NCBI GenBank assembly: GCA_015179125.1
Contig: WHVA01000118.1
Span: 1 to 64,000, forward strand
DNA from: Gautieria morchelliformis
Lineage: Eukaryota > Basidiomycota > Agaricomycetes > Gomphales > Gomphaceae
Direction of reading: 5' to 3'
Length of the DNA: 64,000 nt
Made by a program: the position numbers and the translations under genes. Every line of letters begins with the position of its first letter. Position 1 is the first letter of the stretch. Under the pieces are notes generated by a model. The model did not search any database. It saw only the letters and a list, made by a program, of their open reading frames with translations, and was not told the DNA's origin. Positions 18,607-43,456 of this stretch are shown piece after piece.

Positions 18607-19265
18607 TTCACCGCGTTTTGTGGGTTAGTATTTACCGTCCGTATGACCAATAGCTCTCCAGGGCTGATGATATGGTACGGGTACCGTACCGTCCGTATTA
18701 CGGTTGACGGAAATATTAATGGTATGTTAATGACGTAATATATGGTATGTTAACGATGTAAAGGCCATATCACCGCGTTTTAGGGCTTGGTAATTGTGGT
18801 CTGAGAACCTGCAAATAAGTCAGTTTACGTTGGTGCTTGGCAAAAGAGTAGGTGAGGTACGCAGATCTCCAAATAGGTCTTTTGATGCATGCACATTAGA
18901 TACGTGCGTCATTGATTGTGCATCTGAGTATATAACATGTAAATACCTGAGTTAATCATATTCTAAGTGACCCTCCTTGTCAGAAGCCGAGTTTGCCAGA
19001 ATGGCCTTGGCCATATAGTCTACTTGGAGTGCAGTGACCTGCAGCCACACCTGCTTGTAACAGGTAATTAATTATATTCCAAACCACTAGTTAATTTGTA
19101 CACCACCCTCAGTGGAATGCCCCTCTGCACATGCCGCAGCAGCACACCCAGCTAGGTCCCAGTGCTTCAAAGCATCCGGTCGAGGATGCCACTCACAGGC
19201 CCTCACCATTTGGTGTGATCGCGACACTGTCCTTGTGCCCCACGAGGTGGTCAATCAGCTGCCCC
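18607..19265. mobile_element. Two direct copies of a CMC/CACTA-like terminus, truncated by Gypsy-A
   Basis: CACCGCGTTTTGTGGGTTAGT at about 18,609 and CACCGCGTTTTAGGGCTTGGT at about 18,770 match the terminus of the element at 37708-43853 (CACCACATTTTAGGGGTTGGT), in the same orientation and about 160 bp apart. No matching right end is found before the Gypsy-A LTR at 19266, so the second is probably a truncated element. Palindromic GGTACGGGTACCGTACC lies between them. No coding sequence. Confidence 0.5.
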
Positions 19266-19755
19266 TGTAAGGGCAACCCTGGCTGGTTGTGGAGATCACA
19301 CTACCACACAACTGACAAGGGGAAATCCAAAGCATGTATAAATGAACAGAGTATACAAGAGAGGGGATTCTCACCTGACAAGGGGAAATCCAAAGAGAAA
19401 AGTCTAAGGACCCCCAATGTCAGCGAGCCCGTATTATACTACGCTGCGCAGCCAGGGACAACACTTGGCACCCATCATCAACCCTGCATCCTCCTGACCT
19501 CCCTGACCCTTGATCGACCCTTGATGCCACCTATTACGTGAGTCGCTTGATTTCCGACACTGTCCCGAGAGCGGAAGTTGGAAATTGGAGTGGAACTGGC
19601 AAGGCGAACAGAACTGGTGGAAGTTCTCCCAGAAGCGGAATCATTTCCGAAAGCGGAGGCGGAGATGGAATCGGAACCGGAAGCGGAGTCGAAAATGGAG
19701 CCGGAACTGGGTGTGGTGTCGGAACTGGAAATGGAAAACAGGGTGTCCCCTGACA
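19266..19755 (-). mobile_element. 3' LTR of Gypsy-A (490 bp)
   Basis: On the minus strand it reads TGTCAGGGGACACC ... GGTTGCCCTTACA (TG..CA). A purine-rich GAGGGGGGG tract lies immediately upstream, as expected for the polypurine tract. The U3 side holds a GGAA-C hexamer-rich segment (about 19,600-19,740) that creates misleading open frames. The LTR at 32942 is in the opposite orientation, so it is not the simple 5' partner. Confidence 0.8.
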
Positions 19756-22585
19756 TCACCCCCCCTCTAGCGTGCTGCATCCTCGAAGCACGGGACACGA
19801 GGGATTGAAATGCCAGCGAGCAGATTCGGCGAGGGGCACCGGGGTGTGTCCTATAGAACTCATGGAGTTTGTCTGGAGCGGAAACGTCTTGCTCTGGGAC
19901 CCACGAATTCTCCTCGTACCCATACCCTTCCCATTTCACGAGGAATTGGAGTTGTCCTCGCACAAACCGGCTGTCCAGGATCCGTTCCACCACATAGTGT
20001 TCTTCCCCATCTACAATTTCCGGCGGGGGTGGCGGACGAGCCTTCCGACCTGGAATTGGGTCCTCAAGCATAGGGAGTAACTTCACCATGTTGAAGACGG
20101 GGTGGAGGCGGGACATGGACATCGGAAGTCGGAGGCGGTATGCATTCCATCCAACCCTCCGCGTCACCGTGAAGGGCCCAAGGTAGCGGTGGGCAAGCTT
20201 CTGCAAAGGGCATGTGGTGCGGATGTCACTTGCATCTAGATACACCTTGTCTCCAACTTGGTACTCTGGGGCAGGAACCCGGCGTTGGTTGTAGTACCTT
20301 GCCATGTCATCCTTGGCCTTCGCAAGGCCGACTTGGCTTCCGAAAGGGTGGAGTCCATGCGGCCCGGAACTCATTGACCGTCTCGAGTCGGGAGTCAGCC
20401 TGGCATGGTTCGAAGCCCATCCACGGGTGTCGTCCGGAGTCAAGCATGAAGGGAGTCTGTTGTGTGGCGGAATGTACATGGTTGTTGTATTGGAATTCCG
20501 CCAGTGGAAGTAACTCATCCCAGTCATCCTGCCTCTCATTGACAAAGAGGCGGAGATATTGCTCCAACTCCTGATTGACCCATTCCGTCTGTCTGTCACC
20601 CTGCGGATGGTATGCTGTGGTGGTAGCCAGCTTTATGCCGAGCAGGCGGTAGAGCTCCCGAGTCAGTTCCGCGACAAATTGCGGACCTCGGTCGGAAACA
20701 ACTTGCTTCGGGAGCCCATGCAACTTCCAGACATGTGCAAGGAACAGGCGGGCCGCTCTGAGGGCTGTGATCGTCGTGTGCGTCGGAATGAAGTGGGACA
20801 CCTTGCTTACCAAATCCACGACGTTCATGATCGCGTCGTAGCCATGAGACTCTGGGAGTTCAACGATGAAGTTGACACTGATGGTGTCCCAGCGGGATTC
20901 GGGAATCGGGAGCGGAACAAGTTCTCCGACGGGCGGATGTCGTTGTGCTTTGGTTCGGAGACAAAGGTCACATGTCTTCACGTACTGTCCAATGTAGCAG
21001 GACATCTGAGGCCACCAGTAATTCCGAGCCACTAACTCCAGTGTCTTCCACCTGCCAGCATGCCCAGCGACCCGTGTGTCATGGTGCTGGGACACGATGC
21101 GGCGGCGGAGGTCCGCCCCACCTGGAACGTAGACCTTGCCTCTGAAGTGGAGCAGTCCATCACGTTCCAACCATTCCGCTGCCCGTACAGACCGTGAGTG
21201 CCCTTTCCGAAGTTCCTCCACTGCCTTCACCACCGACTCCTCCTTCTCTCCATTCCGGTACTGCCTCCGGATATCTCAGAGCATTTCCGCTTCTGCCCCA
21301 ACTGCAGTCACTCCTTCTAGGGTGTGGATTGCAAAGAGACTTGGGCAGAGCAGTGTCATATCTGCGTTGTCTCCACTTCCGCTCCCATGATCCGCACGGT
21401 GGGATAGGGCATCAGGCTTGCCCATGGTGCGGCCGGGGTGGTGGTGGAGCATGAAGTCGAACCGGGACAGGTGTAGGGACCACCGTGCTTGTCGTCGGTT
21501 CAACTTCTTAGACGTGCGGAAATACTCGAGGTTCTTGTGGTCTGTCCAGATCTCAAATGGGCATAGAGCACCCTCGAGGAAGTGTCACCACTCCTCCAGC
21601 GCTCGGATGATTGCTAGCATCTCCTTGTCATGGATCTCATAGTTCCGCTCGACCGGACTAAGGCTCTTAGAGAAGAAGGCAATTGGATGCCACCCCCCAC
21701 CCTCTTCCGGCAACTGTTGTGACAAGACCGCTCCGGTAGCTGTGTCAGAAGAATCCGCCTCGACTCGATAAGGGCAAGAGTCGTCGGAAAAGATCAGGAC
21801 CGGGGCAGAAGTGATCAGCTCTTTGAGTTTGTCAAAGGAGGCCTGTTCCGGCTCTCCCCACTGCCATCCAACCTCCTTCTTGGTGAGGTCAAAGAGGGCA
21901 CGGGCGTGGCAGGAGAAGTCCTTGATGAACCGCCGGTAGAAATTGACAAACCCAATGAAGGACTGGACCTCCTTCTTGTTCCGTGGCACGGGCCATCCGA
22001 CACACCGGAAACTTTGACTGGGTCCATTTCCACCTTTCCTTCCGACACAATCACCCCAAGATACTCTATCCGCGTCCGCTCAAATTCGCACTTTTCCGGC
22101 TTGAGACACAGGTTGTACTCCCGGAGCCGTTCCAGCACTCTCCGCACGACTTCCCGATGTTCGGATATTGTTTTTGTGAAGATGAGGATGTTATCGAGGT
22201 AGACGCAGACAACCCCTTCTGCTATCATGTCACGGAAAATGTCATTCATCATCGTCTGGAATGTGGCAGGACTGTTGGTGAGGCCGAAGAACATGACCTG
22301 TGGCTCAAAGAGTCCTCGGTTGGTGCGGAATGCGGCCTTCCACTCGTCTCCCTCCTGGATCCGGACATTATTGAAGCCCCAGCGGACATCCAGCTTAGTG
22401 AAGTACCTTGCCCCACGGAGTTGTGTGATCAGTTCAGAAATGAGTGGAATGGGGTACCGGTTCTTGATCGTGATCGCATTCAAGGCCCGGTAATCCTGCA
22501 CAAGTCTGAGCGAGCCGTCCTTCTTCTTGATGAAAAACACCGGAGATGCCATGGGTGACTTGGAGGGGTGGATCCTCCCTGTACG
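19756..22585 (-). pseudogene. Gypsy-A pol: RT, RNase H, integrase and chromodomain, inactivated
   Basis: In element order (minus strand): reverse transcriptase 22,552-21,990 (KSPMASPVFFIKKKDGSLR, then the polymerase box reading YLDN instead of YxDD), RNase H 21,989-21,420 (VEADSSDTATG, then YEIHDKEMLAI), integrase zinc and core 21,233-20,400 (TCDLC, VVSDRGPQF, YHPQGDRQTEW), and chromodomain about 19,960-19,820 (FLVKWEGYGYEENSWVP). Lesions: a frameshift near 21,990, TGA stops at 21,585 and 21,276, a frameshift near 20,310-20,600, YLDN in RT, and ISVNFIVEL where ISVDF is expected for the first integrase Asp. It is interrupted on its upstream side by the Penelope-like element and continues at 32,500. 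About 50 codons of the spacer between protease and RT are missing at the insertion. Confidence 0.9.
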
Positions 22586-25500
22586 GCGGTGAGAAGTAAC
22601 CAACAACTCAATGGTACCCCTCCTTGAGAGGGGGAGCCATATAATATATGGGAAAGTCACAAAGTCACAGAAGATGTAGGCTAAAAAACATTTTAATGAA
22701 ATCGGTGCACTCACCTTTGCAGCACAAGTTAAGTCCAGAACACAAGTTTTTGGTTGAAAACAGTGGAGTATGACCACAGTAAAGGATGTAAACAGATGCA
22801 AACAAGAGGTGAATAAGTGACTGAGATTTTTCAAAAAAAATAATTTAGCAAACAAAGACAAATAAAGTGACAGTGATTAGTCACCAATGATGACTTAATG
22901 CAGCCTTGGTTGGAGGATGACTAACAGGGATTATGTGATATAATTGGTGGTAGGAATGTTTTAATAACAGTGGAGGGGTGTTTGGAAGTTAATTTTTCTA
23001 AGCATCCAGATCCTCTTTTTATATGATTTGTAGTGGTTGTGCACAGACCATGCAGAATTTTGTTGTATGGTTATAGTGAACAGACTGACATGGATATAGT
23101 GTAAAAACCAGACTGTGTGATGGAATTTTTTTCTTTTTGGGTCATGGACCACACCAGATTCAGTGACAGATCTGGGTTTGTAATAGATGGATTTACCGGT
23201 CTGTAGGATACTGTGGGTGTAGTGACAGACGTGGATTTTTGTGACAGAATATTGTTATGGACAGACATGGGCCAAATGTGACAGAATAAAAATAGATTTT
23301 TTGTCGCAAAATGTGCGCTTTGTATGTGGGTGTCTAGATGTTCAAAAATTATATCTGATATGTCATTTCTCATGACAGTGTGGGTGTTTTGATTTAGTTG
23401 AAAGTATAATTTTCAGATAAAAGCTATTGTAGCATGTGTACAATCACTGTGTAAAATTAAGTGAAGCGTAATCTGTGATTGTTTATATTTCTAGACCTTG
23501 TTCTCATATAGAAAACTTTATGTTCATGGCATCCTGGTATTTATTATACAAACATAAAATTCCTCAGGGTTGGTGACAGATTTCTTTTGTGTGTGTTTCT
23601 TTTGGCACGTGACATGTTATCTAAAGCGATGTTTTTTTTCTTCAGAGACACATATTTTGTCTTTAAAACCTTCTAAGGTAAATGAGGATATTTGAGATAT
23701 GTATATCTTTTCTTATTCTGAAAAACCTGAGCTTATCGATGAGTTTAGCGGTGCACGCTTCTTTTATATATGATGCCCATCGATACACATTTATTTATAT
23801 ACTGCACCCATCGATGATTTTGACAGATGTCTCTTTATAGCATCCAAAATAGCGTCACGATACATCCTTTTAACTTTGACCTAACCAATGGTTCAGACAT
23901 ACATGTTTTCTTTATCCCTTCAGCCAACCGACAATCCTACACCACATATTTCTGCTCCAAGTGAGCAGCCTTCGGGGCCATGCTTTTTGGCCTGTCGATG
24001 AAGGGGGTGATGGTGTTGGGTTACAAAGTTGGGCAGGTTGGTGGGGAAAATTGAAATGGTATGGGTCAAAACTGCAGCTTGTGCCGCTTTCAACGATGTG
24101 CATGTCTCCAGTACTTTCTTTGTCCTCCTGTGTAAAGGGGAGATCGTGGATTGGCATGTCAACTCGACCTGAAAGTGGGTCAAAAAAGAGTTCGTGGGGA
24201 TCTAGGCTGCTGCCCCAGTCCAAGCTGCTTATGCTCGTCCTGCCAGATTGGCATCTGTTGTGGGCTGGTGTTGGTGGTCGAACTCGAATGATTGGAATCA
24301 TAGGGACTGATGATGTTGATGTATGAGTGGAGTACATGGCAGCAGAGCTGATGGCTCAGTTTGGAGTATGATGGTGCTTTGTCTGATAGCTGCGGATAGG
24401 TTCCGCGTAGCGCTGTTTTTTAGCGGAGTTATCTGGTTGGTGATATTTTTAGATATCTGCCAGGGTTATTGTTTTTATTTTTATTTGGTTAGATTCCTTG
24501 TAGGTGCATAGCATCACATGGAGGAATAAGTTGATTTTTTTATTTTTATTTTGGAAGTAAACACTTTTTGATGGTTAGCTCCATTTAGGTGGTTAGATCT
24601 CACCACGGTCTGCAGGTAGTGAAAGTATTTATGGTCTGTTTATTTGTGAAAATATTGCATATCTAAATGAGATATGTGAAGTCCAACCTAATGTAATAAT
24701 TTGCTTCATTGTGTATCAGCCATACCAATTGGTGTCTTAATGACTTGCTATGTGGTTGGTTGATAGAATTATTAAATCAGATAGCAGCAGAGGTGGTTTG
24801 TTACCTGTTTGCGAGTCAGAATTTGCCATCTATATTTATTGGCAGCATCTACTATTGTATTATTTTGAGCAAGTCATTTGTACTGTAATAACAGAATTTT
24901 TGCAGGATGTTATGCGAGCATATGCACCGAACCTCTATGCCAGGTAGAGATTGTAGTGACAAAAGGAAAATGTGTTTTCTGCCTAGAGAGCAGTGTTTAT
25001 GCAGTTTTAAAATAACCGAGTGCATAATCAGCTTGTATGTTATTTTCCCAATTCAGTCAAAGCCACTATTTTTTAAGGAATGGTGGTCTTTAGACTTTGA
25101 CAGGCTGCTTGAATTCTGAGTCGATAAGAGTGCAGCAGACATATATGGCATTATCAGCCAATAGTACATGTCATTTTTGCATAAATAGTAGTGAGTTTTA
25201 TACTTGAACTGACATGTGCATGTGGTTTCGCACGGCTATTTTTTGCCTTTTGTTTTAGGCAGGAGGTGACCCGATCGGCAAGATATAAAAGTAGATTTAT
25301 ATCAGATCTACTTGAGTAAAATAAAAACTCCTTGCATTGTTATGCATGGAACAAACCGAGGTGTTTATTTGACTCTAAAGTATTATATCATTTACGATAT
25401 GGTCGGAAGGACATGTTTTTGTATAAATCATATGTATGTGAGGGCTATTCCTTGTTTGACTCAGTCAGACATGTGAATCATAGTCATCTGATATGAATGT

Positions 25501-26536
25501 TTTCCGAGCATTCATGTGCAGGCAGTCTAAGCATGCTTAGACAGTTAAAGCATATTGCTGTATGACTATAGCAGGGCCATTCAATCGAAGGCCTCTAGGA
25601 TAGTATTACAGTACAGTGGATAAGTGAATTAACTTTGCCTGTTTGTGCTGTTGTCAAGCAGATTGATGACACATTTGTGTCGGTAATTTCTTTATCCCCA
25701 TTCTCTGATACAGAGTCTTTTTTTATCTGGATTTTTTTTGGTGTATTTTTTTTTTTTTTTTGAATATTGGTTATATAGTTTTTTAGCAGTAGGCTTTTTA
25801 AAGCATGTATTTTATTTAATTGTTTATTTGGTATATATCTGGGGTGGTATGTAACAGGTTACCACTATGAATATTGTTTTCATTTTTTTAGTTTTAATTT
25901 TATATATAAAAGTGATAGTTGGATGGTAATAATTATAATCCCTTCTTTTTTCTAGCTTGTAGTAGCAGAGCAAGTAGTTTAGGAGGTGCTCAGTAGCATA
26001 TCATCACCGGTGTAGCCATTTTGGCAGGTAGTTCATAGATGTCTTTGATTGTTTTATGGAACTCATCTAGACTGTTTCTTAAAAACGAAAGTGATATGAT
26101 TGGATTGTACATGATTTTCAGGATGAATGGTACAGATTGGTTTTTAGGGTTTTGTCTAAGATAGTGTGCTCTGTATGACCATTTGACTGAGAGGAAGGCT
26201 TTGTGAATGAATGCTAAAGTATATCCTCTTCTTTGTAGTCGAAGTTTAAACAGCTGGAGGATGTGCTCGTAGTCTGTTTCTCTTGCACTAAGTCTGACAT
26301 ATCTGATTGCTTCCCCTTTGATAAAACCATTTTTGTTGTGGTTAGGGTGATATGAATGGAAGGGTAGATATGGATAACGATTGAGTTCTTTTTGGAATAC
26401 TTTTACTAGAACACCAGCTGAGTTTTTATATCGCCCAAGTGTTACATCAAGGAAATTAACAGACTGTTGAGAGATTTCAGCAGTAAGCTTTATTGTTTGA
26501 TCAATACTACTGAGCTCTTTTAGAAAGGTGAGGATT
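22586..26536 (-). repeat. Left arm of the 3.95-kb inverted repeat
   Basis: Its reverse complement equals 28548-32499. Paired positions sum to 55084 over nearly the whole arm and to 55085 at the outer end, because of a single 1-nt homopolymer difference (5 T near 22,993-22,997 against 6 A near 32,086-32,091). I found no other difference in the stretches compared. It holds the 3' part of the RT gene, about 3.4 kb of non-coding 3' sequence and a 141-codon open frame. Confidence 0.9.
23912..24337 (-). CDS. 141-codon open frame in the Penelope 3' region, left copy
   Basis: A frame rich in Ser/Thr/Pro (MYSTHTSTSSVPMIPIIRV, ending RIVGWLKG) lies 1.65 kb downstream of the RT gene on the same strand. 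An identical copy is in the right arm. I do not recognise it. It may be a small element protein, an exon of one, or chance. Its preservation is explained by the identity of the two arms, so it is not evidence of selection. Confidence 0.3.
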   Translation of the reverse strand: MYSTHTSTSSVPMIPIIRVRPPTPAHNRCQSGRTSISSLDWGSSLDPHELFFDPLSGRVDMPIHDLPFTQEDKESTGDMHIVESGTSCSFDPYHFNFPHQPAQLCNPTPSPPSSTGQKAWPRRLLTWSRNMWCRIVGWLKG

Positions 26537-28556
26537 TGGTCATGCTTCGCTCTAAAGATTGCCAGTACATCATCAATGAAGCGGATGTAAAATAAAAGTC
26601 CTTTGCTTTTCCATTTGTTAACTGTTGCTCGCTCGAGCATGTGCATAAAGATATTAGTATAGGAGGACCAACAGGACTTCCCATAGCTGTTCCATTTCAT
26701 TGCCTTTTGACAGAGCCATTAAATGTCATATATCCTGTGGTCAGGACTAGATGTAAGCTTTTGAGTAGAAATTCTCTTTTGGCATGACATTCCCAGTTGA
26801 TTTCTCTGAGAAAGGTTTGCATAGCAAGCATTCCTCTGTCTATATCTATGTTGGGGTATAGTGCTTCAACATCAGCTGTTACAAAGTGTATATCTTTGCT
26901 GTGTATGGGAATTTGTTGTCTAATCATATTAGATTCAAGCATGTTAATTAGCTCATTGGTATCTTTTGGCACGGTTCCTGTTTGAAGAGATAATGGATTC
27001 AGCTGTGCTGCAATCCATTCTGATAGATGAAAAGTCATCCAAGTCATGCTAGGTAGGATAGGTCGTCCTTTAACTGGCTGTTTTTGAACTTTGGCAGTGA
27101 TGTAAAACCTCATGATTTTCCATTCATGCTTTTGTAATATCCATTTGACTTCTGGTAGTTCTAGATAGTCTTTGTATTCTTGAGTCAGTTTACTGATTTG
27201 GTGAAAGATTTCATTCATTTTTGTTTGGCCTTGGTCTAACCCGAGGAATGCCTCAGTACATTCTTCATAGTTGTTTGTATTATTTAAGTGTGCCTCGCAG
27301 GCTTGTATATACCATTTGGTAGTTGTGACGGCATATCCAAGGTTTTTATCTGCTATGATAATCATGATGTCTGGTCTGGTGTGAAGGAAGCTGTTAAGCT
27401 CCTTCCTTAGTGACTTGTGCCAATTATATTTAGGCATAGACCCTGGTTGGTTTATAAGTGTATCATATAGGTTTTTTAGTCCTTTTTCTAGTTGTTTTGA
27501 ACTAGATATTGGTGGGGTTTTTTTTGACTTGATCCACCAGTCTGGTATTTTGTCTTTCTCAGGATCCAGTTTGTTCTTCCTATATAACCATTGCCATCTG
27601 CATTGTTTGATAAATTCAGACATAGCATCATGAATAACTTGGCATTCTGGTTTTGGTGTTGGAATAAACTTAGTTCCTAAAGATAAGGCATCAAGGACTT
27701 TTTGTGGGAGGATACAGTTGGTTAAGTTATGGATTGTGGTTGGGCAAATACCAAGTCTTTCAATGTGTGAGTTAACTTTTGACTGTGCATCAAGTTTTTC
27801 TGTTAGACGTATGATATTTGACTTTGATACAATTTTTTTAAGTCTGTTGGAATGTTTATTCCTCCTTCTATGTTTATGTATCAATTTTCCTTCCCCTTTC
27901 CCTTCCTCATCTGTTGAATGTCCTTCCTGGAGTAAGGAGAGTAAGTTACTTTCCTTTTCTCTGGTTTGACAGCCTTGCTGCCAGCTCTGACCTGTAATAG
28001 ATTGTTTAAAGGTAGAGAGAGATGATGGGTGATATATGCTAACATTAGCTTGCTCCAGCTGAGTGCTTTCTTTGCCATGTACTCTTTTGGCTCCTTCTTC
28101 CCATTGTTCAGCACCTTTTTTCCTTCCTTGTTCTATCCATGCTGCAAACTGCTCATCCCAATGTTTAATAACAGCAGGACACTCCACTAGAGATTGATCT
28201 AGGTGATCAGGGTGTTTGGCTGTCTCCTGATTGAGGGAATTCTTGAGTTCTCCAAGAAATTGCTCAGCAATAAGCCCTGAAGGTTGTATTATCTGAGCCA
28301 GGAGTGCTACATTATCAGTTTTGGCCTCCATAAAGGCATTTTCAAGGTGTTTGATGTATTCTGTGTGGATGGCCTTCCAAGTGGCTTGGAGGTCACCAAT
28401 GTGAGTGGTGGGGCAAGTGATTTCTTGTAGAAATTTAACTGGTTTTCCATCACCAACTTGCTTGAGTAGCCTATTGAGACTGGTCTCAGCAGTATAGTGG
28501 GTTCTGAGGAGAGCATGTGAGGTTTCTTTTATTAAAATTTGATTTGGAATCCTCAC
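25990..28556 (-). pseudogene. Penelope-like element polyprotein: N-terminal linker plus reverse transcriptase
   Basis: Two minus-strand frames, 28556-26697 (about 619 codons) and 26700-25990 (about 236 codons), form one reading broken near 26,640-26,700. A TGA follows FNGSVKRQ, and a further frameshift lies between TAMGSPVG and NIFMHMLERA. The first frame has no ATG: it runs back into the inverted arm, so the 5' end is missing. Motifs in order: ADKNLGYAVTTTKWY (Penelope N-terminal conserved block), AKVQKQPVKGRPI, ADVEALYPNIDI (RT motif A), GTAMGSP (motif B) and YIRFIDDVLAIF (motif C). SQQSVNFLDVTLGR and a C-terminal tail ending in VMICY follow. No GIY-YIG domain follows the RT or is visible upstream. 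Confidence 0.8.
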
Positions 28557-31500
28557 CTTTCTAAAAGAGCTCAGTAGTATTGATCAAACAATAAAGCTTA
28601 CTGCTGAAATCTCTCAACAGTCTGTTAATTTCCTTGATGTAACACTTGGGCGATATAAAAACTCAGCTGGTGTTCTAGTAAAAGTATTCCAAAAAGAACT
28701 CAATCGTTATCCATATCTACCCTTCCATTCATATCACCCTAACCACAACAAAAATGGTTTTATCAAAGGGGAAGCAATCAGATATGTCAGACTTAGTGCA
28801 AGAGAAACAGACTACGAGCACATCCTCCAGCTGTTTAAACTTCGACTACAAAGAAGAGGATATACTTTAGCATTCATTCACAAAGCCTTCCTCTCAGTCA
28901 AATGGTCATACAGAGCACACTATCTTAGACAAAACCCTAAAAACCAATCTGTACCATTCATCCTGAAAATCATGTACAATCCAATCATATCACTTTCGTT
29001 TTTAAGAAACAGTCTAGATGAGTTCCATAAAACAATCAAAGACATCTATGAACTACCTGCCAAAATGGCTACACCGGTGATGATATGCTACTGAGCACCT
29101 CCTAAACTACTTGCTCTGCTACTACAAGCTAGAAAAAAGAAGGGATTATAATTATTACCATCCAACTATCACTTTTATATATAAAATTAAAACTAAAAAA
29201 ATGAAAACAATATTCATAGTGGTAACCTGTTACATACCACCCCAGATATATACCAAATAAACAATTAAATAAAATACATGCTTTAAAAAGCCTACTGCTA
29301 AAAAACTATATAACCAATATTCAAAAAAAAAAAAAAAATACACCAAAAAAAATCCAGATAAAAAAAGACTCTGTATCAGAGAATGGGGATAAAGAAATTA
29401 CCGACACAAATGTGTCATCAATCTGCTTGACAACAGCACAAACAGGCAAAGTTAATTCACTTATCCACTGTACTGTAATACTATCCTAGAGGCCTTCGAT
29501 TGAATGGCCCTGCTATAGTCATACAGCAATATGCTTTAACTGTCTAAGCATGCTTAGACTGCCTGCACATGAATGCTCGGAAAACATTCATATCAGATGA
29601 CTATGATTCACATGTCTGACTGAGTCAAACAAGGAATAGCCCTCACATACATATGATTTATACAAAAACATGTCCTTCCGACCATATCGTAAATGATATA
29701 ATACTTTAGAGTCAAATAAACACCTCGGTTTGTTCCATGCATAACAATGCAAGGAGTTTTTATTTTACTCAAGTAGATCTGATATAAATCTACTTTTATA
29801 TCTTGCCGATCGGGTCACCTCCTGCCTAAAACAAAAGGCAAAAAATAGCCGTGCGAAACCACATGCACATGTCAGTTCAAGTATAAAACTCACTACTATT
29901 TATGCAAAAATGACATGTACTATTGGCTGATAATGCCATATATGTCTGCTGCACTCTTATCGACTCAGAATTCAAGCAGCCTGTCAAAGTCTAAAGACCA
30001 CCATTCCTTAAAAAATAGTGGCTTTGACTGAATTGGGAAAATAACATACAAGCTGATTATGCACTCGGTTATTTTAAAACTGCATAAACACTGCTCTCTA
30101 GGCAGAAAACACATTTTCCTTTTGTCACTACAATCTCTACCTGGCATAGAGGTTCGGTGCATATGCTCGCATAACATCCTGCAAAAATTCTGTTATTACA
30201 GTACAAATGACTTGCTCAAAATAATACAATAGTAGATGCTGCCAATAAATATAGATGGCAAATTCTGACTCGCAAACAGGTAACAAACCACCTCTGCTGC
30301 TATCTGATTTAATAATTCTATCAACCAACCACATAGCAAGTCATTAAGACACCAATTGGTATGGCTGATACACAATGAAGCAAATTATTACATTAGGTTG
30401 GACTTCACATATCTCATTTAGATATGCAATATTTTCACAAATAAACAGACCATAAATACTTTCACTACCTGCAGACCGTGGTGAGATCTAACCACCTAAA
30501 TGGAGCTAACCATCAAAAAGTGTTTACTTCCAAAATAAAAATAAAAAAATCAACTTATTCCTCCATGTGATGCTATGCACCTACAAGGAATCTAACCAAA
30601 TAAAAATAAAAACAATAACCCTGGCAGATATCTAAAAATATCACCAACCAGATAACTCCGCTAAAAAACAGCGCTACGCGGAACCTATCCGCAGCTATCA
30701 GACAAAGCACCATCATACTCCAAACTGAGCCATCAGCTCTGCTGCCATGTACTCCACTCATACATCAACATCATCAGTCCCTATGATTCCAATCATTCGA
30801 GTTCGACCACCAACACCAGCCCACAACAGATGCCAATCTGGCAGGACGAGCATAAGCAGCTTGGACTGGGGCAGCAGCCTAGATCCCCACGAACTCTTTT
30901 TTGACCCACTTTCAGGTCGAGTTGACATGCCAATCCACGATCTCCCCTTTACACAGGAGGACAAAGAAAGTACTGGAGACATGCACATCGTTGAAAGCGG
31001 CACAAGCTGCAGTTTTGACCCATACCATTTCAATTTTCCCCACCAACCTGCCCAACTTTGTAACCCAACACCATCACCCCCTTCATCGACAGGCCAAAAA
31101 GCATGGCCCCGAAGGCTGCTCACTTGGAGCAGAAATATGTGGTGTAGGATTGTCGGTTGGCTGAAGGGATAAAGAAAACATGTATGTCTGAACCATTGGT
31201 TAGGTCAAAGTTAAAAGGATGTATCGTGACGCTATTTTGGATGCTATAAAGAGACATCTGTCAAAATCATCGATGGGTGCAGTATATAAATAAATGTGTA
31301 TCGATGGGCATCATATATAAAAGAAGCGTGCACCGCTAAACTCATCGATAAGCTCAGGTTTTTCAGAATAAGAAAAGATATACATATCTCAAATATCCTC
31401 ATTTACCTTAGAAGGTTTTAAAGACAAAATATGTGTCTCTGAAGAAAAAAAACATCGCTTTAGATAACATGTCACGTGCCAAAAGAAACACACACAAAAG

Positions 31501-32499
31501 AAATCTGTCACCAACCCTGAGGAATTTTATGTTTGTATAATAAATACCAGGATGCCATGAACATAAAGTTTTCTATATGAGAACAAGGTCTAGAAATATA
31601 AACAATCACAGATTACGCTTCACTTAATTTTACACAGTGATTGTACACATGCTACAATAGCTTTTATCTGAAAATTATACTTTCAACTAAATCAAAACAC
31701 CCACACTGTCATGAGAAATGACATATCAGATATAATTTTTGAACATCTAGACACCCACATACAAAGCGCACATTTTGCGACAAAAAATCTATTTTTATTC
31801 TGTCACATTTGGCCCATGTCTGTCCATAACAATATTCTGTCACAAAAATCCACGTCTGTCACTACACCCACAGTATCCTACAGACCGGTAAATCCATCTA
31901 TTACAAACCCAGATCTGTCACTGAATCTGGTGTGGTCCATGACCCAAAAAGAAAAAAATTCCATCACACAGTCTGGTTTTTACACTATATCCATGTCAGT
32001 CTGTTCACTATAACCATACAACAAAATTCTGCATGGTCTGTGCACAACCACTACAAATCATATAAAAAGAGGATCTGGATGCTTAGAAAAAATTAACTTC
32101 CAAACACCCCTCCACTGTTATTAAAACATTCCTACCACCAATTATATCACATAATCCCTGTTAGTCATCCTCCAACCAAGGCTGCATTAAGTCATCATTG
32201 GTGACTAATCACTGTCACTTTATTTGTCTTTGTTTGCTAAATTATTTTTTTTGAAAAATCTCAGTCACTTATTCACCTCTTGTTTGCATCTGTTTACATC
32301 CTTTACTGTGGTCATACTCCACTGTTTTCAACCAAAAACTTGTGTTCTGGACTTAACTTGTGCTGCAAAGGTGAGTGCACCGATTTCATTAAAATGTTTT
32401 TTAGCCTACATCTTCTGTGACTTTGTGACTTTCCCATATATTATATGGCTCCCCCTCTCAAGGAGGGGTACCATTGAGTTGTTGGTTACTTCTCACCGC
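28548..32499 (+). repeat. Right arm of the 3.95-kb inverted repeat
   Basis: Mirror copy of 22586-26536, separated from it by a unique 2.0-kb spacer (26537-28547) that carries the upstream part of the RT frame. The arm starts inside the RT coding sequence (KELSSIDQTIKLTAEI, about 28,565) and runs to the shared outer terminus. Confidence 0.9.
30747..31172 (+). CDS. 141-codon open frame in the Penelope 3' region, right copy
   Basis: Exact mirror copy of 23912-24337 in the inverted arm, with the same start and stop. The function is unknown and the same reservations apply. Confidence 0.3.
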   Translation: MYSTHTSTSSVPMIPIIRVRPPTPAHNRCQSGRTSISSLDWGSSLDPHELFFDPLSGRVDMPIHDLPFTQEDKESTGDMHIVESGTSCSFDPYHFNFPHQPAQLCNPTPSPPSSTGQKAWPRRLLTWSRNMWCRIVGWLKG

Positions 32500-32941
32500 T
32501 GCAGGTACTCCGGAATTTCCGCCTCCACTCTATCATGCCTCTTGGAGGCTTCAGCAAGGTGTTGCGAAATATTTCCGGTGGCGCGGATGTGTTCCGCTTC
32601 TGGCGGAAGGTTTACGTACAGCAAGCGCTCCCCTTCCACCAGAGTGTCTTCCGGGCTGAGTCGGATGACGTCGGAGTCGGAATCGGAATCGGAATTGGAC
32701 GTGGGATCTGGTTCAAATTCCGCTTCCGAGTCTTCTTCTGCAAGCAGTGGATGGGGGCCAGAACGACATGTCTGTATGAGCCGTTCGGTCTTCCACTGCT
32801 CCTGGCGTTCCTTCTGCACTTCCGACCGGCACATGTGACACTTGGCTGGACATCGACTCATCAGTACCTTCCAAGTCTGCCAATTGATCTCCGGGTTGTG
32901 CTCCTGAAGCCAGGTAAACCCGAGGATGATGTCTTGCTTCC
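32500..32941 (-). pseudogene. Gypsy-A protease end and protease-RT spacer (5' part of the interrupted pol)
   Basis: The minus-strand frame reads DIILGFTWLQEHNPEINWQ (end of the retropepsin domain) and LMSRCPAKCHMC. An acidic spacer follows, ending AEIPEYLQR at the Penelope junction. It continues at 22,552 with the RT. Upstream protease and gag are absent because an LTR in the opposite orientation begins at 32942. Confidence 0.85.
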
Positions 32942-33372
32942 TGTCAGGGGACACCCTGTTTTCCATTTCCAGTTCCGACACCACACCCAGTTCCGACTCC
33001 ATTTCCGACTCCGCTTCCGGTTCCGATTCCATCTCCGCCTCCGCTTTTGGAAATGATTCCGCTTCTGGGAGAACTTCCACCAGTTCTGTTCACCTCGCCA
33101 GTTCCACTCCAATTTCCGACTTCCACTCTCGGAACAGTGTCGGAAATCAAGCGACTCGCGTAATAGGTGGCATCAAGGGTCGATCAAGGGTCAGGGTGGT
33201 CAGGGAGATGCAGGGTTGATGGCGGGTGCCAAGTGTTGTCCCTGACTGCGCAGCATAGTATAATACGGGCTCGCTGACATTGGGGGTCCTTAGACTTTTC
33301 TCTTTGGATTTCCCCTTGTCAGGTGAGAATCCCCTCTCTTGTATGCTCTGTTCATTTATACATACTTTGGAT
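32942..33372 (+). mobile_element. Gypsy-A family LTR in opposite orientation, 3'-truncated
   Basis: It starts TGTCAGGGGACACC on the plus strand and matches the 19266-19755 LTR in inverted orientation. It breaks off at TTTGGAT, about 70 bp before the expected end, where an inverted Gypsy-B LTR begins. It sits directly against the Gypsy-A protease, so it is a later insertion or a rearrangement product, not the 5' LTR of the interrupted element. Confidence 0.75.
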
Positions 33373-33939
33373 ATACGATCCTTCGTAAGGTTGACCGAGC
33401 TTGGGGTGAAACCCAAGGTAAGGTCCGAGGTTACAGAGCGAGGTTCTGATAGGGAGGTCGGAGGGACTTGGCTTCAGCTTATGTGCTGTGCCGACCCTAC
33501 ACACGAGTCCCAATTTCGGAGGTAAACGAATAAGAGGCGAGGTTTGGCTCAAGAGGCGAGGTTTGGCTCAAGAGGCGAAGGCTTAGAAACTAACTAGGGA
33601 TCAAGAGGTACAATAGTTGATTTTCAGACTGAGGAGTAGGAATGCATACAAGGGGGTTTATATACGAGCGAGGGTACGAGTCAGGGGCGAGCATATTCGG
33701 GGGAAGGTCAGGGCGAGGTCAGGGCGAGGTAATATACGAATGATGCGTGATGGAGTGGAATCAGTAACTAAGGGGATTCGGGCATGGGATCAAGGTCGGA
33801 TATGAGCTCGGGCTCAGGCTCGGGCTCGGGCTCGGGCGCAGGATTAGAATCACAAGTACTCGGGCACGAGTATCACAAGGCTCGGGCTCGGAAGAAAGGT
33901 TATACCGGTAAGTAACCGGCCAAAGGCCGAGTCCTTACA
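33373..33939 (-). mobile_element. Gypsy-B family LTR, inverted copy
   Basis: The reverse complement starts TGTAAGGACTCGGCCTTTGG and ends at CGAAGGATCGTAT, 7 nt short of the full LTR (34365-34910). It contains the CCCGAGCCCGAG-type repeats typical of this LTR (about 33,800-33,840). Confidence 0.8.
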
Positions 33940-34364
33940 CCGAGCTTAGGAACTTCATGCTGGAATGCGACAGCCATTATTGGGAGTGTAAGGAATACGA
34001 TGCTATGGCCAATGGTTGTAACTCTCAGCCTGCGCGCCCCACTAGTCAGTCCACCAACAATGCCGCTAACAACAATCAGTCTTCCAGTGGTTCTAACAAC
34101 AACAAGAACTGCAACAAGACCAACAACAATGGCAAGGGTTCCAACAACAACAACTCAGCCAACAACAAAAGCCAGCCCGACATCTTGAGCAAGCTCGGGA
34201 CAGACGGTAAATTGCTTCCCGACGAACGCCAACGTCGGATCGACCAAGGCCTTTGCCTGCTCTGCGGCACCAAGGGTCACATAGTCAAGGACTGCCCGAA
34301 GAACAAGTCTACCAACGGTAGCAGTTCCAAAGGTCGGGCAACGAAGACCTCTAACGAGGGAACT
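33940..34364 (+). pseudogene. Gypsy-B gag fragment (zinc knuckle) between inverted LTRs
   Basis: It reads ELRNFMLECDSHYWE, an Asn/Ser-rich linker, and a CLLCGTKGHIVKDC zinc knuckle (CX2CX4HX4C), then stops at the LTR at 34365. It is closely similar to the gag C-terminus at 36,210-36,640, so it belongs to a second copy of the same element. It is flanked by LTRs pointing away from each other's usual arrangement. Confidence 0.8.
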
Positions 34365-34910
34365 TGTAAGGACCCAGCCTTTGGCCAGTTACTTACCGGT
34401 ATAACCTTTCTTCCGAGCCCGAGCCTTGTGATACTCGTGCCCGAGTACTTGTGATTCTAATCCTGCACCCGAGCCCGAGCCCGAGCTCATATCCGACCTT
34501 GATCCCATGCCCGAATCCCCTTAGTTACTGATTCCGCTCCATCACGCATCATTCATATATTACCTCGCCCTGACCTTCCCCTGACCTTCCCCTGAATATG
34601 CTCGCCCCTGACTCGTACCCTTGCTCGTATATAAACCCCCTTGTATGCATTCCTACTCCTCAGTCTGAAAATCAACTATCATATACTTTGATCCCTAGTT
34701 AGTTTCTAAGCCTTCACCTCTTAAGCCAAACCTTGCCTCTTATTTGTTTGCCTCCGAAGTTGGGACTCGTGCATAGGGTCGGCGTAGCACATAAGCTAAA
34801 GCCTAGTCCCTCTCCGACTTCCCTATCAGAACCTCGCTCCGTAACCTCGGACCTTACCTTGGGTTTCACTCCCGAGCTCGGTCAACCTTACGAAGGATCG
34901 TATCGTAACA
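34365..34910 (+). mobile_element. 5' LTR of Gypsy-B (546 bp)
   Basis: It begins TGTAAGGACCC and ends CGTATCGTAACA (TG..CA), followed by the element leader and gag ATG. It matches 46360-46896 (3' LTR), 33373-33939 (inverted) and 50609-51171 (solo). Confidence 0.85.
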
Positions 34911-34954: not shown

Positions 34955-36663
34955 ATGTCCATGATAACTCGTTCCCGCACCCTTTGGGGTATCTCAGAAC
35001 AACGATGTTTCTCGGAAGCCCCCGACGATTCACCACCGTCCCCGGGGATACCCCTCACAGACCCCGCTGAGCCTAGTAACAAAGGCAAAGGTAGGGCTGA
35101 CCCCGGTGACCCTTCAGGTGATCCAGGTGATGGGTCTGGGGGTTCTGACAATGATCGGGACCTCCCCAACCTGCCACCCGAGGACCTCGGTGACCTCGAG
35201 GACAACGAGCTAATGCGTCGAGTGTTCATCAAGCTCGCGAAACCTCACGAGTCCAAAGCACGAGCCAAGGCCAAGGAACCAGATAGTTATGATGGTACTG
35301 ACCAGGCCAAGCTTTGCACCTTCTTCCTCCAATGTGTACTCAACTTCCGAGATCGCCCCTCAGCTTTCAAAACTGGGGCCTCGAAGGTACAGTATGCTAT
35401 CTCTTACCTGTGTTAAGAATGCAAGTCGTACTTAAGACTCAACCCAAGGGCCGAGCCGAGGATAACCGAGGTTTGGAACAGAGGGCTTGGCTTCAACTTC
35501 GTAGGTTGCGCCCACTACAGTGTTCCGCCCTAATTTCGGAAACGGAATTGGAGATGGGTTCGGCTGGAAGCTGAGGTTCGGAAATGAGGATCAGACAGAG
35601 GAGCGGAAGATACGAGGAATCTAAGTCAATATCAGAACTGAGGAATTAGCGTACATGACGGGGGGTTTATATACTAATTTGCAAGGAACGGAAAGAGGGC
35701 ATCAATGCCCGTATCGAGCAGGAAGCAGGGTTGATGGATGATCATCAGAAATGGAACAGGACTATCTAGGAATGGGGATCAGGGTGAATGATGAACCGAT
35801 AGGGAACCCAAATTAAGCCCGAAGGTTCCCGAGCGAGAACCGAGGCCGAGGCCTCGGGTCCAGACTTGGGAACGGGTCTTAACAACCTGTCTGGTTCAGC
35901 TCTCCAGTACTTTGAACCGGCGATCCTCGGCGAAGTCCAACCCAAGCCAGATTGGCTCGAGGACTGGGACAGCTTCAAGGCTGAGCTTAAGCTCAACTTC
36001 GGTCCATACGACAACGCTGCCCAAGCCAAGATCGACCTCAAGAAGATTGTTATGAAAGAGCACCACAAGGCAGCACGATTCTTTATCGACTTCGCTCGAG
36101 CTTTGACTCGGACTCAGTGGAACGATTCGGCCCTCTGACACTTCGCGTATAAGGGCTTGGCCAAGCGAATCAAGGACAATTTGCTTCACTTCCCTCGATT
36201 CCGCAGCCTCACCGAGCTTAGGAACTTCATGCTGGAATGCGACAGCCGGTACTGGGAGCGTAAGGAATATGACGCTATGATCAATGGTCGTAGTTCCCAG
36301 CCCGCGCGCACCACTAATCAGTCCAGCAGCAATGCCACTAACAACAACCAGTCTTCCAGCGGTTCTAACAACAACAAGAACCGCAACAAGACCAACAACA
36401 GCGGCAAGGGTTCCAACAGCAACTCTTCGAACAACAAGAGCCAGCCCGACATATCGAGCAAGCTCGGGAAAGACGGTAAATTGCTTCCCAAGGAACGCCA
36501 ACGTCAGGTCAACCAGGGCCTCTGCCTGCTTTGCGGCACCAAAGGCCACATCATCAAGGACTGCCTGAAGAACAAGTCTACCAATGGTAGCGGTTCTAAA
36601 GGTCAGGCAGCGAAGACCCCTAACGAGGGGACTTCAGCCTCCATTACAGAGGTGAAAAAATAG
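34955..36663 (+). pseudogene. Gypsy-B gag, interrupted by a solo LTR
   Basis: ATG at 34955 gives MSMITRSRTLWGISEQ, a Pro/Asp/Gly-rich N-terminus and the retrotransposon gag domain (LAKPHESKAR, FLQCVLNFRDRPSAF). The frame stops at 35,416 because of the LTR insertion at 35411 and resumes after it (LSGSALQYFEPAILG). Removing the LTR plus one ACCTG copy restores the frame exactly. A TGA at 36136-36138 then interrupts DSAL-HFAYKG. The end carries the zinc knuckle CLLCGTKGHIIKDC. Confidence 0.85.
35411..35884 (-). mobile_element. Solo LTR (family E, 474 bp) with TSD ACCTG, inserted in gag
   Basis: On the minus strand it reads TGTTAAGACCC ... TTCTTAACA (TG..CA). It is flanked by direct ACCTG repeats at 35406-35410 and 35885-35889. 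It shares a GTAGGTTGCGCCC segment with the family-C LTR, so the two families are probably related. Confidence 0.9.
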
Positions 36664-39638: not shown

Positions 39639-40293
39639 TGTTACGACCGTTCATTCCCGACTTCCGACCTTCATTTCCGCAACACTTTCCGCCCCTCCGA
39701 TATTTCCGACATTCCGTCCATTGTTCTATTCCCTTGTTCTTTCGACTCAATTACTTGGAGCCACCGGACCTGCTTCATCGTTCATCAAGACCATATGTCC
39801 GGCCCTCCTTATGTTTCGTTGTCAGATATGTTTTCCCAACCCCTTGTTCTTTGCCATTGTTTTACCTTACCCTGAACCCCCCTTGTAGTCCCATTGTTCC
39901 CAATTAGTTAGTTCCCACACATTGTCTACTCGACTTCCGCTTCCCCCGGAATTTGCTTAGTACTACCCCATTACCTGTTGTCTCAGCTCTTTGTATAAAG
40001 GCCTGTCATGTATGTCTGTTATTCTGCAATCAGATAATCACCTTCGATACTTGATTTCCCTCGCTCCATCTCCTGTTCTTAGCACAGTGAGTCTAGCAAG
40101 GCCTCCGTCTCTCCGCCTTCCGTCTTCCACCTCAATTCCGCCTCAAGTTCCGACTAAACCTTCAGTTCAGTATATTCCGGCTTCCGACCCATTTCCCAAA
40201 TACCTAGGACGATAGTTCATTGGGGGTGCAACCTACAAGTTGAAGCCGCTGTCCTTTCCAGTTCTGACTTAGCGGAAATCTCGATATGTAACA
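39639..40293 (+). mobile_element. Family-C LTR, plus orientation (655 bp)
   Basis: It starts TGTTACGACCG and ends CGATATGTAACA (TG..CA). It has an inverted partner at 42292-43456. The next 116 bp (40294-40409) are also mirrored (42173-42291), so the inverted unit is LTR plus leader. Confidence 0.8.
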
Positions 40294-40409
40294 GGAGATA
40301 AAAGTAGTTCCATTACTCTAATAGGTAGCACCTCAATGTGATGCTGTCAAGATTGGTTTTTAGGCGTTAATATCGTGTATTAGTGAACACAGCGAATGCC
40401 CGAATGACT

Positions 40410-42172
40410 TATGTACCCCTCGCTATCCGTGCCCTCTTACCTTCCCCATCAGAAGCGAAGCAGATGTGCAGTCGCCTCACTGTGACAGGCTCTGCAGCTT
40501 TCGCCGACCCAGGCATACCCCCGGCTGACTGCGAATCAGAGCAGGGGACTTCGCCGAATGCATCACCGAGTTAGCATAGTCGTCACAAGAATACATGAGA
40601 AAACCATACCTTCCGGGTCCTTCCTAGTCACCTCCCTTCCTTCACACCCCTTCGACGTCAGCGTAAAGATCGGAGCCAGAGTCGAATCAATATCCGCTTC
40701 TGCGAGTACCGGTTCCAACGTCAATGCCGAACTTTCTAACCACACCCTCGCTTTCTGGATCTCCTTCGCCAGCTCGTCTACTTTGGACGGTCTTTCGAAC
40801 GTTTGGACGACCACCTCCTCGACCTGCAGCATTTTCCAAAGCTCCTCCTAGACCTCATCATTGAGCGAACGAAAGCTAATAAAGAAAAAGAGCAGTGCTC
40901 ACTTGAACTCCTGCCGCATCAACCAACCACTGCTCCACATCCCCTCGCGACTCTCCCCGAAGCTCCGGCCTAACCCTCAACACGACCTGCGATCGATCGA
41001 GGAGAACTGAGTACCCAGGTGTCGTCATAGGGGCAGTACGCTTGGCTGGGGTGCTTAGATGGGTCCCATAACCCCGTTCCGCGCCACGTTTTTAAACAAA
41101 AAAAGAAGTCGTGCACGGGCCACGCAGCTATGCAGGGCCCAGACTTCAGAGATCCCATCGGGGAACCCATTACGTCTTTAACGGTTCCGCCCCACCATAG
41201 GGCGCAGCGTCGTTGGACTCCGAAGCTAGGAGGGGGGTACTGTCATGACCTGTCTATTTCTCTTACCCCACTGCCTCTATGTTCCCCCTCGTCACTCCCT
41301 AGCATCTTCACCAGAGTTTGCCGTACCCACTGACCACTCCCCCTCTACGTCCACTCTACCCGCTGTTCGCCCCATTTTCCGAACCGCTATTCGCTGCTCG
41401 CGCATTTCGCCAGCAGGCACGCCATCAAATATGATCGATACCATTTACCCTGCATGATGGTTCATCATTAACCCCATCATCTTCTTAATCCAACCCCTTT
41501 GGGTGTTCGTATGGCCAAAGTGTGTTCGCAGGACGTCCCTTCCATAGGTCGTGCAGGATCAACCCAGTAGACGAAGAGTCCATGCAGGTAGCATGTATGC
41601 AGGTCCCAAGACATGGTTTTGTCCATAAGTGCCTTCGCCACCTTTACTCTCCGTCGTTTCATGTTCGCAGTCTTCCCTCACTCTATTGTATGTTTATTCC
41701 ATCTACTTAGTATCGTGACTGCGCACCCCTATCCGACCCTGACTCACGACGGCCTCTTTCCTATTCGCTAATACCTTACGAGCATTCGATATAAGTAGTT
41801 TACATTTGCATGTATATTCTCCAGTTCAATTATCATACGTCGTCCGTCTTGTGCAAACTTGACCTCGCGGTGATCATCGTCTTGAGCCTTCTCCTGGAGG
41901 TTTCTATCTTCAACCAGAAGAGGACTTAGGCACCACTGGTGAGTTCTCATACTTCATCTTCGTTACCTTAGCCTTCGAACTATTTTCTGTGCTGACGGCG
42001 AAGGGATTGTTGCTACTTAGACAACCCTTCCATGACACCTTGCACGTTACATCATCAAGTGCCATGGGCTATTTCGCTATGACTGTAGATATGGCGAGCC
42101 CCGCTTGGGCAGCCCTCTTATCTTGTGAACATTTATTGGTTCACCTATTCGCCGAACGGCATACTTATTCGC
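40410..42172. other. 1.76-kb spacer between inverted family-C LTRs
   Basis: Contains a minus-strand frame at 40,563-40,832 with coiled-coil character (VDELAKEIQKARVWLESS) that I cannot name. It also contains a GGAGGGGGGTAC tract followed by TGTCATGACC at about 41,228-41,250, which looks like a polypurine tract and the start of another LTR. The rest is unassigned. It could be the remains of a further LTR element. Confidence 0.4.
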
Positions 42173-42291
42173 ACAAGTCATTCGGGCATTCGCTGTGTTC
42201 ACTAATACACAATATTAACGCCTAAAAACCAATCTTGACAGCATCACATTGAGGTGCTACCTATTAGAGTAATGGAACTACTTTTATCTCC

Positions 42292-43456
42292 TGTTACATA
42301 TCGAGATTTCCGCTAATTCAGAACTGGAAAGGACAGCGGCTTCAACTTGTAGGTTGCGCCCCCAATGAACTATCGTCCTAGGTATTTGGGAAATGGGTCG
42401 GAAGTCGGAATGTACCAAACTGAAGGTTGGTCAGAACTTGAGGCGGAATTGAGGCAGAAGATGGAAGGCAGAGAGACTGAGGTCTTGCTAGACTCGCTGT
42501 GCTAAGAACAGGAGATGGAGCGAAGGAAATCAAGTATCGAAGGTGATTATCTGATTGCAGAATAACAGACATACATGACAGGCTTTTATACAAAGAGCTG
42601 AGACAACAGGTAATGGGGTAGTACTAAGCAAATTCCGGGGGAAGCGGGAAGCGGAAGTCGAGTAGACAATGCGTGGGAACTAAATAATCGGGAAACAATG
42701 GGACTACAAGGGGGGTTCAGGGTAAGGTAAAACAATGGCAAAGAACAAGGGGTCGGAAAAACATATCTGACAACGAACTACAAGGGTGACCGTGTTGGGT
42801 GCATTTATGCTCCTGCACAAAAATCAAGCATAATATATTCAATTTACTGTATGGGGTTTCAATTTCTTCTCACATTGTTCTTGTACCATGCATCCATTTC
42901 TCTGATTATTTTCGAAATTTTCCAGTCACTCCCTACCTCTCCATTCCACTTTGTTATTTCTACTTTCATAGGCGGCTGCACCAAGCGGAGTCTGAAATGA
43001 CTTCGACGCGCGAGCTCTTGGGCGCTAAAGGGCCGGGTAGTAGTACATGCACAGTGAGACAGATTTCCCCCTCTCTCAGTGACAACTAAATTCACTGAGA
43101 GAGGCAAGTAAATTAGTCTAGTGTTCCTTCGATTTATTGACCTAGAAATCCTCTATAGTGAATTAATTTCTAGGTAGTGTATAATATATTTATAGTGACA
43201 ACTAAATTCACTGAGAGAGTGAATTAATTTCTAGTCTATTCTTTTGAGCAACAAGTCCATACCTACTGCCTATAATTCCTGTCTACTACAGACCGGATAT
43301 ATGGTCTTGATGAACAATGAAGTGGGTCCGGTGGGTCCGAGTAATAGAGTCGAAAGAACAAGGGAATAGAACAATGGGCGGAATGTCGGAACTATCGGAG
43401 GGGCGGAAAGTGTTGTGGAACTGATGGTCGTGAGTCGGAAATGAACGGTCGTAACA
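42292..43456 (-). mobile_element. Family-C LTR, minus orientation, with a 0.5-kb insertion
   Basis: The minus-strand start is TGTTACGACCG at 43456 and the end TGTTACATATCG is at 42292. Sequence between about 42,785 and 43,290 has no counterpart in the plus copy, so it is an insertion. Inside it is a perfect 13-bp inverted repeat (CCTCTCTCAGTGA at 43070-43082 with TCACTGAGAGAGG at 43092-43104), partly repeated at about 43,195-43,220. Confidence 0.7.

Follow-up and report, generated by a model that had tools for sequence, protein, structure and literature searches.

Two Penelope-like element copies lying head to head inside a gypsy element of Gautieria morchelliformis: a probable insertion from both sides of one break

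The window analysed here is the whole 64,000-nucleotide stretch of contig WHVA01000118.1 (positions 1 to 64,000, forward strand) from the Gautieria morchelliformis assembly GCA_015179125.1. A long palindrome lies within it, and the analysis supports reading this as one element present twice, its reverse transcriptase (RT) putatively of Penelope type, with the two copies placed head to head and their 3′ ends outward inside a Ty3/gypsy element (Table 1). When the window was compared with itself by BLASTN, the inverted arms aligned over 3,952 columns with 0 mismatches and one gap. A repeat search recovered the same arms as two overlapping stretches of 100% identity (3,544 and 412 nt), with 2,011 nt separating their inner ends. 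The sole difference between the arms is an A-run of 5 on the left and 6 on the right, a run that was 6 long in six and 5 long in two of eight other loci examined. A chance origin of the inverted arms is out of the question. The preliminary description of this DNA had reported arms differing by one homopolymer nucleotide, which the alignment confirms. It had also described a head-to-head, 5′-truncated, Penelope-like structure inside a gypsy element. This is likewise supported, the RT call being drawn from motifs and weak hidden Markov model matches (see below).

Element positions carry E numbers (E1-5962), which follow the left copy along the minus strand. The right copy covers E2012-5962 on the plus strand, and the boundary between the two falls at 28547/28548. 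Contig C296 (other copies are likewise named by contig) has a complete-looking copy, which the left copy follows only up to 28503, that is from about E45, leaving 44 nt at the junction. A 30-nt piece of this sequence, searched at up to 3 mismatches, was found nowhere else in the genome, and no template for the 44 nt was recognised in any of seven contexts tried (7/7), the longest shared words being no better than those of shuffled sequence. We favour filler added during joining over a divergent 5′ end. The left copy opens with the heptamer CCAAATC (E1-7), which is found again at E2009-2015, spanning the start of the right copy at E2012, and once more at E1347. Such a recurrence at the right-copy start would be expected by chance at ~0.27% of positions, a figure calculated post hoc. 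Penelope-like elements (PLEs) had been invoked for this locus as makers of inverted or tandem partial copies with pseudo-long terminal repeats (pseudo-LTRs); the inverted copy is indeed present, whilst the tandem pseudo-LTR form is not the arrangement here.

Table 1. Features of the palindrome and of the surrounding gypsy element, in window coordinates.
Feature	Position	Strand	Remarks
Ty3/gypsy, left of insertion	19260..22585	-	LTR, integrase, chromodomain; RT recognised in translation
Left priming site	22584..22586	+	CGG in 6/6 empty gypsy copies
Left arm	22586..26536	-	E2012-5962, the 3′ two thirds of the left copy; its 3′ end is the outer left terminus
RT C-terminal part, other frame	25990..26700	-	236 amino acids (aa); no endonuclease found after it
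Left-copy part absent from right copy	26537..28503	-	E45-2011; most of the RT; matches C296 from E45
RT frame, N-terminal and palm part	26697..28556	-	619 aa as listed; through an accident of the junction its opening codons fall within the right arm
Junction sequence, 44 nt	28504..28547		Joining filler or divergent 5′ end
Right arm	28548..32499	+	E2012-5962; the shorter of the two element copies, inverted, with its 3′ end facing outward
141-aa open frame, long 3′ region	30747..31172	+	In right arm; mirrored at 23912-24337 (-)
Right priming site	32499..32501	-	CGG on priming strand in 5/6 empty copies, CGA in the sixth; window CAG
Same gypsy, right of insertion	32500..32941	-	Collinear with left part except for 169-172 missing bp

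The RT of the window is broken between its two parts. Copies C296 and C215 read through this point, and C281 has a stop there without a shift. The Pfam profile RVT_1 matched with an E-value of 3.8e-5 in C281 and 0.025 in the window, both below the Pfam cut-off, and the NCBIfam group II RT profile matched at 1.4e-4, below its curated cut-off. The best solved-structure match was weak (RNA-directed DNA polymerase, E-value 0.011). The translation contains the motifs TADVEALYPNI, GTAMGSPVGPPYANIFM, FIDDVL, VNFLDV and SYHPNHNKNGFIKGE, which look PLE-like; the assignment of the RT to the Penelope type is tentative. No GIY-YIG domain was found in the three window frames at E-values up to 1, in three frames of C281 and C296 at up to 10, or in 10 of 22 further frames at up to 10, where several short frames were unscanned and introns could hide a domain. 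The frame stops shortly past the RT in C215, C281 and C296. As far as the scanned frames show, the element is apparently an RT without endonuclease, as in the Athena/Coprina type. Endonuclease-deficient, telomere-associated PLEs, namely Athena and Coprina, were reportedly described by Gladyshev and Arkhipova in 2007. Many PLEs, not all, carry a hammerhead ribozyme motif. An Rfam scan of 22000-33000 up to an E-value of 10 gave no hammerhead, returning two weak snoRNA matches only (E-value 1.2, below gathering). The 141-aa frame of the 3′ region was without Pfam or NCBIfam match at E-values up to 1, and its variants among element copies (16 synonymous, 38 non-synonymous, 5 stops) give no sign of constraint. 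Over 144 codons this frame (141-147 aa; L039, L040) is 56% identical in aa sequence to one carried by a 1.15-kb repeat; it is matched at 68-69% DNA identity in at least 21 places in the genome.

The gypsy sequence around the palindrome was compared with its other copies in the genome, the best 40 matches being scored of 943 and of 1349 first-look candidates. The left flank (1 kb) is 96-97% identical to six other copies, and the right flank (441 bp) is 96-97% identical to five of them and 92% to the sixth. With flanks this similar, the earlier wording that the gypsy was heavily mutated is strong; the element is also broken by a second rearrangement at 32941/32942. Here the truncated gypsy is abutted by a gypsy LTR piece in opposite orientation (32942-33372), so the host gypsy is also rearranged, apart from the insertion. 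All six fetched copies with both sides (L031-L035, L038) run straight across the insertion site in the same orientation and are empty. The gap between left- and right-flank matches in these copies is 169, 170, 170, 170, 169 and 172 bp, so that the insertion replaced 169-172 bp of a single gypsy element. A search of the window did not recover the lost piece. Inverted identity halts at the element ends, and the flanks are not mirrored. Taken together, these observations argue against a simple assembly fold-back and for one real insertion with a target deletion.

The genome (122 Mb in 1,113 contigs; the window lies in C136) was searched with the last 200 bases of the element, giving 12 matches (11/11 candidates scored). 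Two are the window arms; the others are C336, C392, C783, C215, C281, C296, a pair of opposed matches in C242, and a C363 copy matched in two pieces, apparently split by a later rearrangement. Nine other copies retain 3′-terminal sequence, the terminus itself being kept in 8/9, and the 5′ ends of fetched copies fall at varying points. Both ends are readable in five copies (C215, C783, C281, C336 and C296), for each of which 1.9-3.7 kb of 5′ flank is available, and none has a second outward arm there (0/5 head to head). C392, which stops at the contig end, cannot be judged. A genome search with the 3′ terminus, proposed in the preliminary description as a way to further head-to-head copies, has thus yielded other copies and, among those readable at both ends, no second case of that form. 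In C242 (L025, about 4337-4340) a tail-to-tail pair was observed, the 3′ end of a 96% identical copy facing the 3′ part of another copy whose pieces are 88-96% identical and into which the first was apparently inserted. No head-to-tail tandem with a pseudo-LTR was seen in the loci fetched for the family. The PLE-type features present are varying 5′ truncation, the inverted copy in the window and the tail-to-tail pair. No second PLE family was found in the genome, 12 matches (12/12 scored) all falling at known loci, the weakest a 70% fragment in C162.

Other insertions of the family show target site duplications (TSDs) of 36 bp (C363), 41 bp (C783) and 82 bp (C296), and none was detected at C215, C281 or C336; insertion ends of variable stagger therefore seem to be used. 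At C296 positions 2-83 of the 3′ flank repeat positions -629 to -548 of the 5′ flank. The 547 bp between this TSD and E45 have no second genome match, and their ATG opens a frame running into the RT frame, so that they are probably the true 5′ end of the element. No run of three or more TTAGGG/CCCTAA units occurs in the window or the fetched loci. The assembly has a TTAGGGx4 array on one contig only, and telomeres therefore seem mostly missing from it.

The 3′ terminus TTACTTCTCACC is common to both window ends and to eight other copies, C281 carrying it as a variant (CTCACTGC). The next letters are GC at both window ends and in C392, C336 and C296, AC in C215, C783 and C363, and AT in C242. 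On the priming strand, ten 3′ junctions read flank followed by (C/T)(G/A)GTGAGAAG; the junction counts exclude pieces without a 3′ end (C156, C162, C171, C349) and the older C242 copy, from which the last 50 bases are missing. Both window priming sites can be read in the empty gypsy copies (Table 1). At C296 the site is CGG in the 5′ TSD copy and CAG beside the element; at C783 it is CGG beside the element and CAG in the other TSD copy. C281, C336 and C363 hit one short dispersed repeat at the same nucleotide, where the target is CGG. The pre-insertion target is known at five sites, and the priming strand ends in CGG at 4/5 and is ambiguous at the fifth. Counting readings from empty sites, TSD copies or junctions, CGG is found at 6/8 independent sites, the exceptions being C392 (AGG) and C242 (TGA, with TGG inferred from the invaded copy). 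The letters at C215, C392 and C242 were read without an empty site and may be the element's own. In the gypsy region CGG accounts for 2.9% of the trinucleotides of either strand, and a junction unrelated to priming would therefore rarely show it. That CGG belongs to the element only was ruled out, as the empty sites carry it in the target too. The CAG readings fit a change at CpG after insertion; they could also be added nucleotides. We take the CGG tendency to reflect a 3-nt pairing of a DNA 3′ end with CCG at the RNA 3′ end. The short dispersed repeat (488 and 558 first-look candidates, best 40 of each scored) was entered by its three insertions (L019, L021, L022/L026) with different 5′ truncations, and their position at one nucleotide suggests a target preference for its GCGGCGG site.

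With respect to age, the window copy has 14 private substitutions among 3,241 otherwise invariant arm positions, common to both arms, and 10 among 1,588 spacer positions, which fewer copies cover. A private 6-bp deletion is also present in both arms. Private arm substitutions in the least diverged other copies number 15 (C336), 16 (C783) and 18 (C215), followed by 18 in C392 (fewer positions) and 22 in C296, whilst more diverged copies carry 29 (C281), 38 (C363), 71 (C156), and 22 and 76 (C242). Had the window arms aged independently like C336, C783 and C215, and were all changes post-insertion, ~30 differences would be expected between them; no substitutions were observed. By comparison, the TSD copies of other insertions differ at 2/41 (C783), 4/82 (C296) and 1/36 (C363) positions. 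Either the arms had one recent common source or their equality was kept by conversion. Private changes in the window copy are T>C in 13/24 cases, unlike the C>T expected of decay, which leans slightly towards a distinct source for this copy.

The locus was probably formed by a single insertion event, primed from both sides of one break, with the complementary DNAs (cDNAs) joined head to head. The gypsy copy would have been opened by a double-strand break or by two nicks opposite each other. The 3′ ends on both sides, each ending in CGG, would have paired with CCG at the 3′ ends of element RNAs and primed reverse transcription simultaneously from two RNA templates. The left cDNA would have extended ~5.9 kb and the right 3.95 kb, growing towards each other until the facing ends were joined with about 44 nt of extra sequence, and the 169-172 bp of gypsy between the priming sites would have been lost. 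Since no endonuclease was detected, we infer that the break already existed and that no enzyme of the element made it. Two-ended priming is supported by the position of both outer ends at the element terminus, by the continuous empty copies with their 169-172 bp in place of the insertion, by CGG at both priming ends in empty copies and at most sites of the family, and by the private changes common to both arms. Moreover, a purified PLE, Poseidon, cleaves and extends both target strands in vitro (PMC11167929).

Several observations weigh against this reading. The arm identity alone could stem from gene conversion, and the in-vitro precedent has a GIY-YIG endonuclease (PMC11167929), none having been found here. 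A deletion is unusual in a family whose other insertions have TSDs or nothing detectable, and the head-to-head form is without replicate among the copies readable at both ends. The junction sequence has no template that was found, and the model does not explain why CCAAATC recurs at the 5′ starts of both copies. The right CGG reads CAG in the window, and one of the six empty copies has CGA. Finally, the RT frame of the left copy is broken; if the insertion is young, then either RT was supplied from elsewhere, or the break in the frame is younger still, or it is an error.

In the model for telomere-associated PLEs, the RNA end pairs with a G-rich 3′ DNA end. We tentatively propose that an endonuclease-lacking PLE may capture broken chromosomes in a telomerase-like manner, CGG 3′ ends pairing with the CCG of the RNA wherever a break offers them. 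As part of the same tentative proposal, capture of both ends of one break would let the cDNAs meet and close it as a head-to-head patch.

The preliminary description had left a recent insertion, gene conversion and an assembly artefact open. Of these a two-ended insertion is now best supported, conversion could account for the identity, and a simple artefact is unlikely. Gene conversion is known to act on long inverted repeats, and it could later have equalised the inverted arms, whether these arose from two insertions separated in time or from one old insertion of two copies. The element need not then be young, and the substitution load of the window copy, in spacer and arms, is indeed like that of better-preserved copies. 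Homogenisation must, however, have reached both ends of the full 3.95 kb, and separate insertions must also explain an exact head-to-head contact together with the loss of 169-172 bp between two CGG sites. The T>C excess fits a distinct source better than decay followed by conversion, without being decisive, and we regard this explanation as unlikely. An error of assembly (a missed hairpin, a chimeric read or a misjoin through repeats) seems very unlikely. Short runs that vary in length by a single base, as in long-read assemblies, account for the sole difference between the arms and for one of the two breaks in the RT frame, and the very abundant gypsy invites misjoins. A fold-back would nevertheless mirror the flank, whereas here inverted identity stops at the element ends and the flanks differ, both starting at the element 3′ end and lying collinear in six empty copies. 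The simple fold-back artefact was rejected on this ground, the collinear empty sites being what we would consider the strongest evidence against a folded read. A misjoin would require that two opposed insertions had separately hit the same gypsy position to within 172 bp.

Priming from one end only, followed by snap-back, would give arm, loop and identical arm in one step, the first cDNA folding and priming itself so that the second arm is copied from the first. Self-priming on an antisense template is the explanation offered for head-to-head Penelope repeats in PMC3846280, and the CCAAATC common to both 5′ ends could reflect folding. Extension should then enter the left flank, yet inverted identity stops at the terminus on both sides. 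The right flank begins at a CGG-type junction in a collinear target, which self-priming does not predict, and the sequence at the turn is an unrelated 44 nt. By our reasoning, the heptamer lies in an orientation that cannot prime the observed product. Snap-back is accordingly rated as improbable, ahead of an assembly error and behind gene conversion. Least credible, to the point of being nearly negligible, is L1-like twin priming, in which one RNA serves both strands and the second strand primes internally. Both target strands are used there and opposed cDNAs result (PMC12016303), but the inverted piece would start inside the RNA. Here the same 3′ end lies at both outer ends and the cDNAs overlap by 3.95 kb. 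With two identical 3′ ends and no internal priming of the inverted part, the L1-style form was rejected.

Other inverted structures lie nearby. A second one (33373-34903) lies directly to the right of the broken gypsy; in it two LTR-like copies of ~550 bp in opposed orientation enclose a 426-bp gag-like fragment, which is a repeat of 36210-36634. A third inverted pair (39639-43456) aligns over 607 columns at 94.6% and 164 at 90.9%, with outer ends TGTTACGACC and GGTCGTAACA.

The insertion mechanism of Penelope-like elements is still little known (PMC11167929). This locus reads as an in-vivo footprint, in that the shared 3′ terminus is visible together with the empty sites and the priming ends on both sides, and the CGG tendency makes base-pairing priming without an evident endonuclease testable. 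It also illustrates one way in which a retroelement could give rise to palindromes of several kilobases. Interest is moderate, because the case is confined to one locus and the group was already known to have head-to-head copies.

The nearest likeness is with Penelope elements of the rotifer Adineta vaga (PMC3846280), where inverted partial copies with 5′-truncated partners occur, head-to-head being the most frequent arrangement, and insertions are partly with and partly without TSDs. One 5′ junction there was formed by microhomology, as read against a related target copy, and Pen3 and Pen4 also form long tandem or inverted structures (PMC3846280). Those families differ in having GIY-YIG, TSDs of 8-10 bp where given, inverted pseudo-LTRs of ~0.2 kb and palindromes at the turn (PMC3846280). 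The window, in contrast, has no endonuclease that was found, 3.95-kb near-identical arms spanning the 3′ region and the RT end, and a 169-172-bp target deletion with both priming ends readable in empty sites. Poseidon of Anolis carolinensis is alike in that one enzyme primes from both target strands in vitro; it differs in its GIY-YIG domain, its preference for AT-rich sites with ATT and initiation inside the RNA (PMC11167929), as against CGG ends and a fixed 3′ end here. Fungal genomes contain only endonuclease-deficient PLEs according to PMC3846280, and a telomere-localised family is described from Mycosphaerella graminicola (PMC4522978). PLEs of the Athena/Coprina type share the RT without endonuclease but end in telomeric repeats, whereas the present family has inserted into gypsy, into a short dispersed repeat and elsewhere. 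L1 twin priming (PMC12016303) and L1-bridged fold-back inversions (PMC7058536) are alike in using both break strands or in opposed orientation, the former differing in internal priming and the latter in bridging sister chromatids and duplicating the flank; neither yields two full 3′ ends in collinear flanks. No published two-ended PLE insertion with a target deletion was found in the literature searched, which mostly excluded subscription journals. What is new relative to the known rotifer head-to-head copies is the combination of long near-identical arms, an apparent lack of endonuclease and an empty site in which both priming ends can be read.

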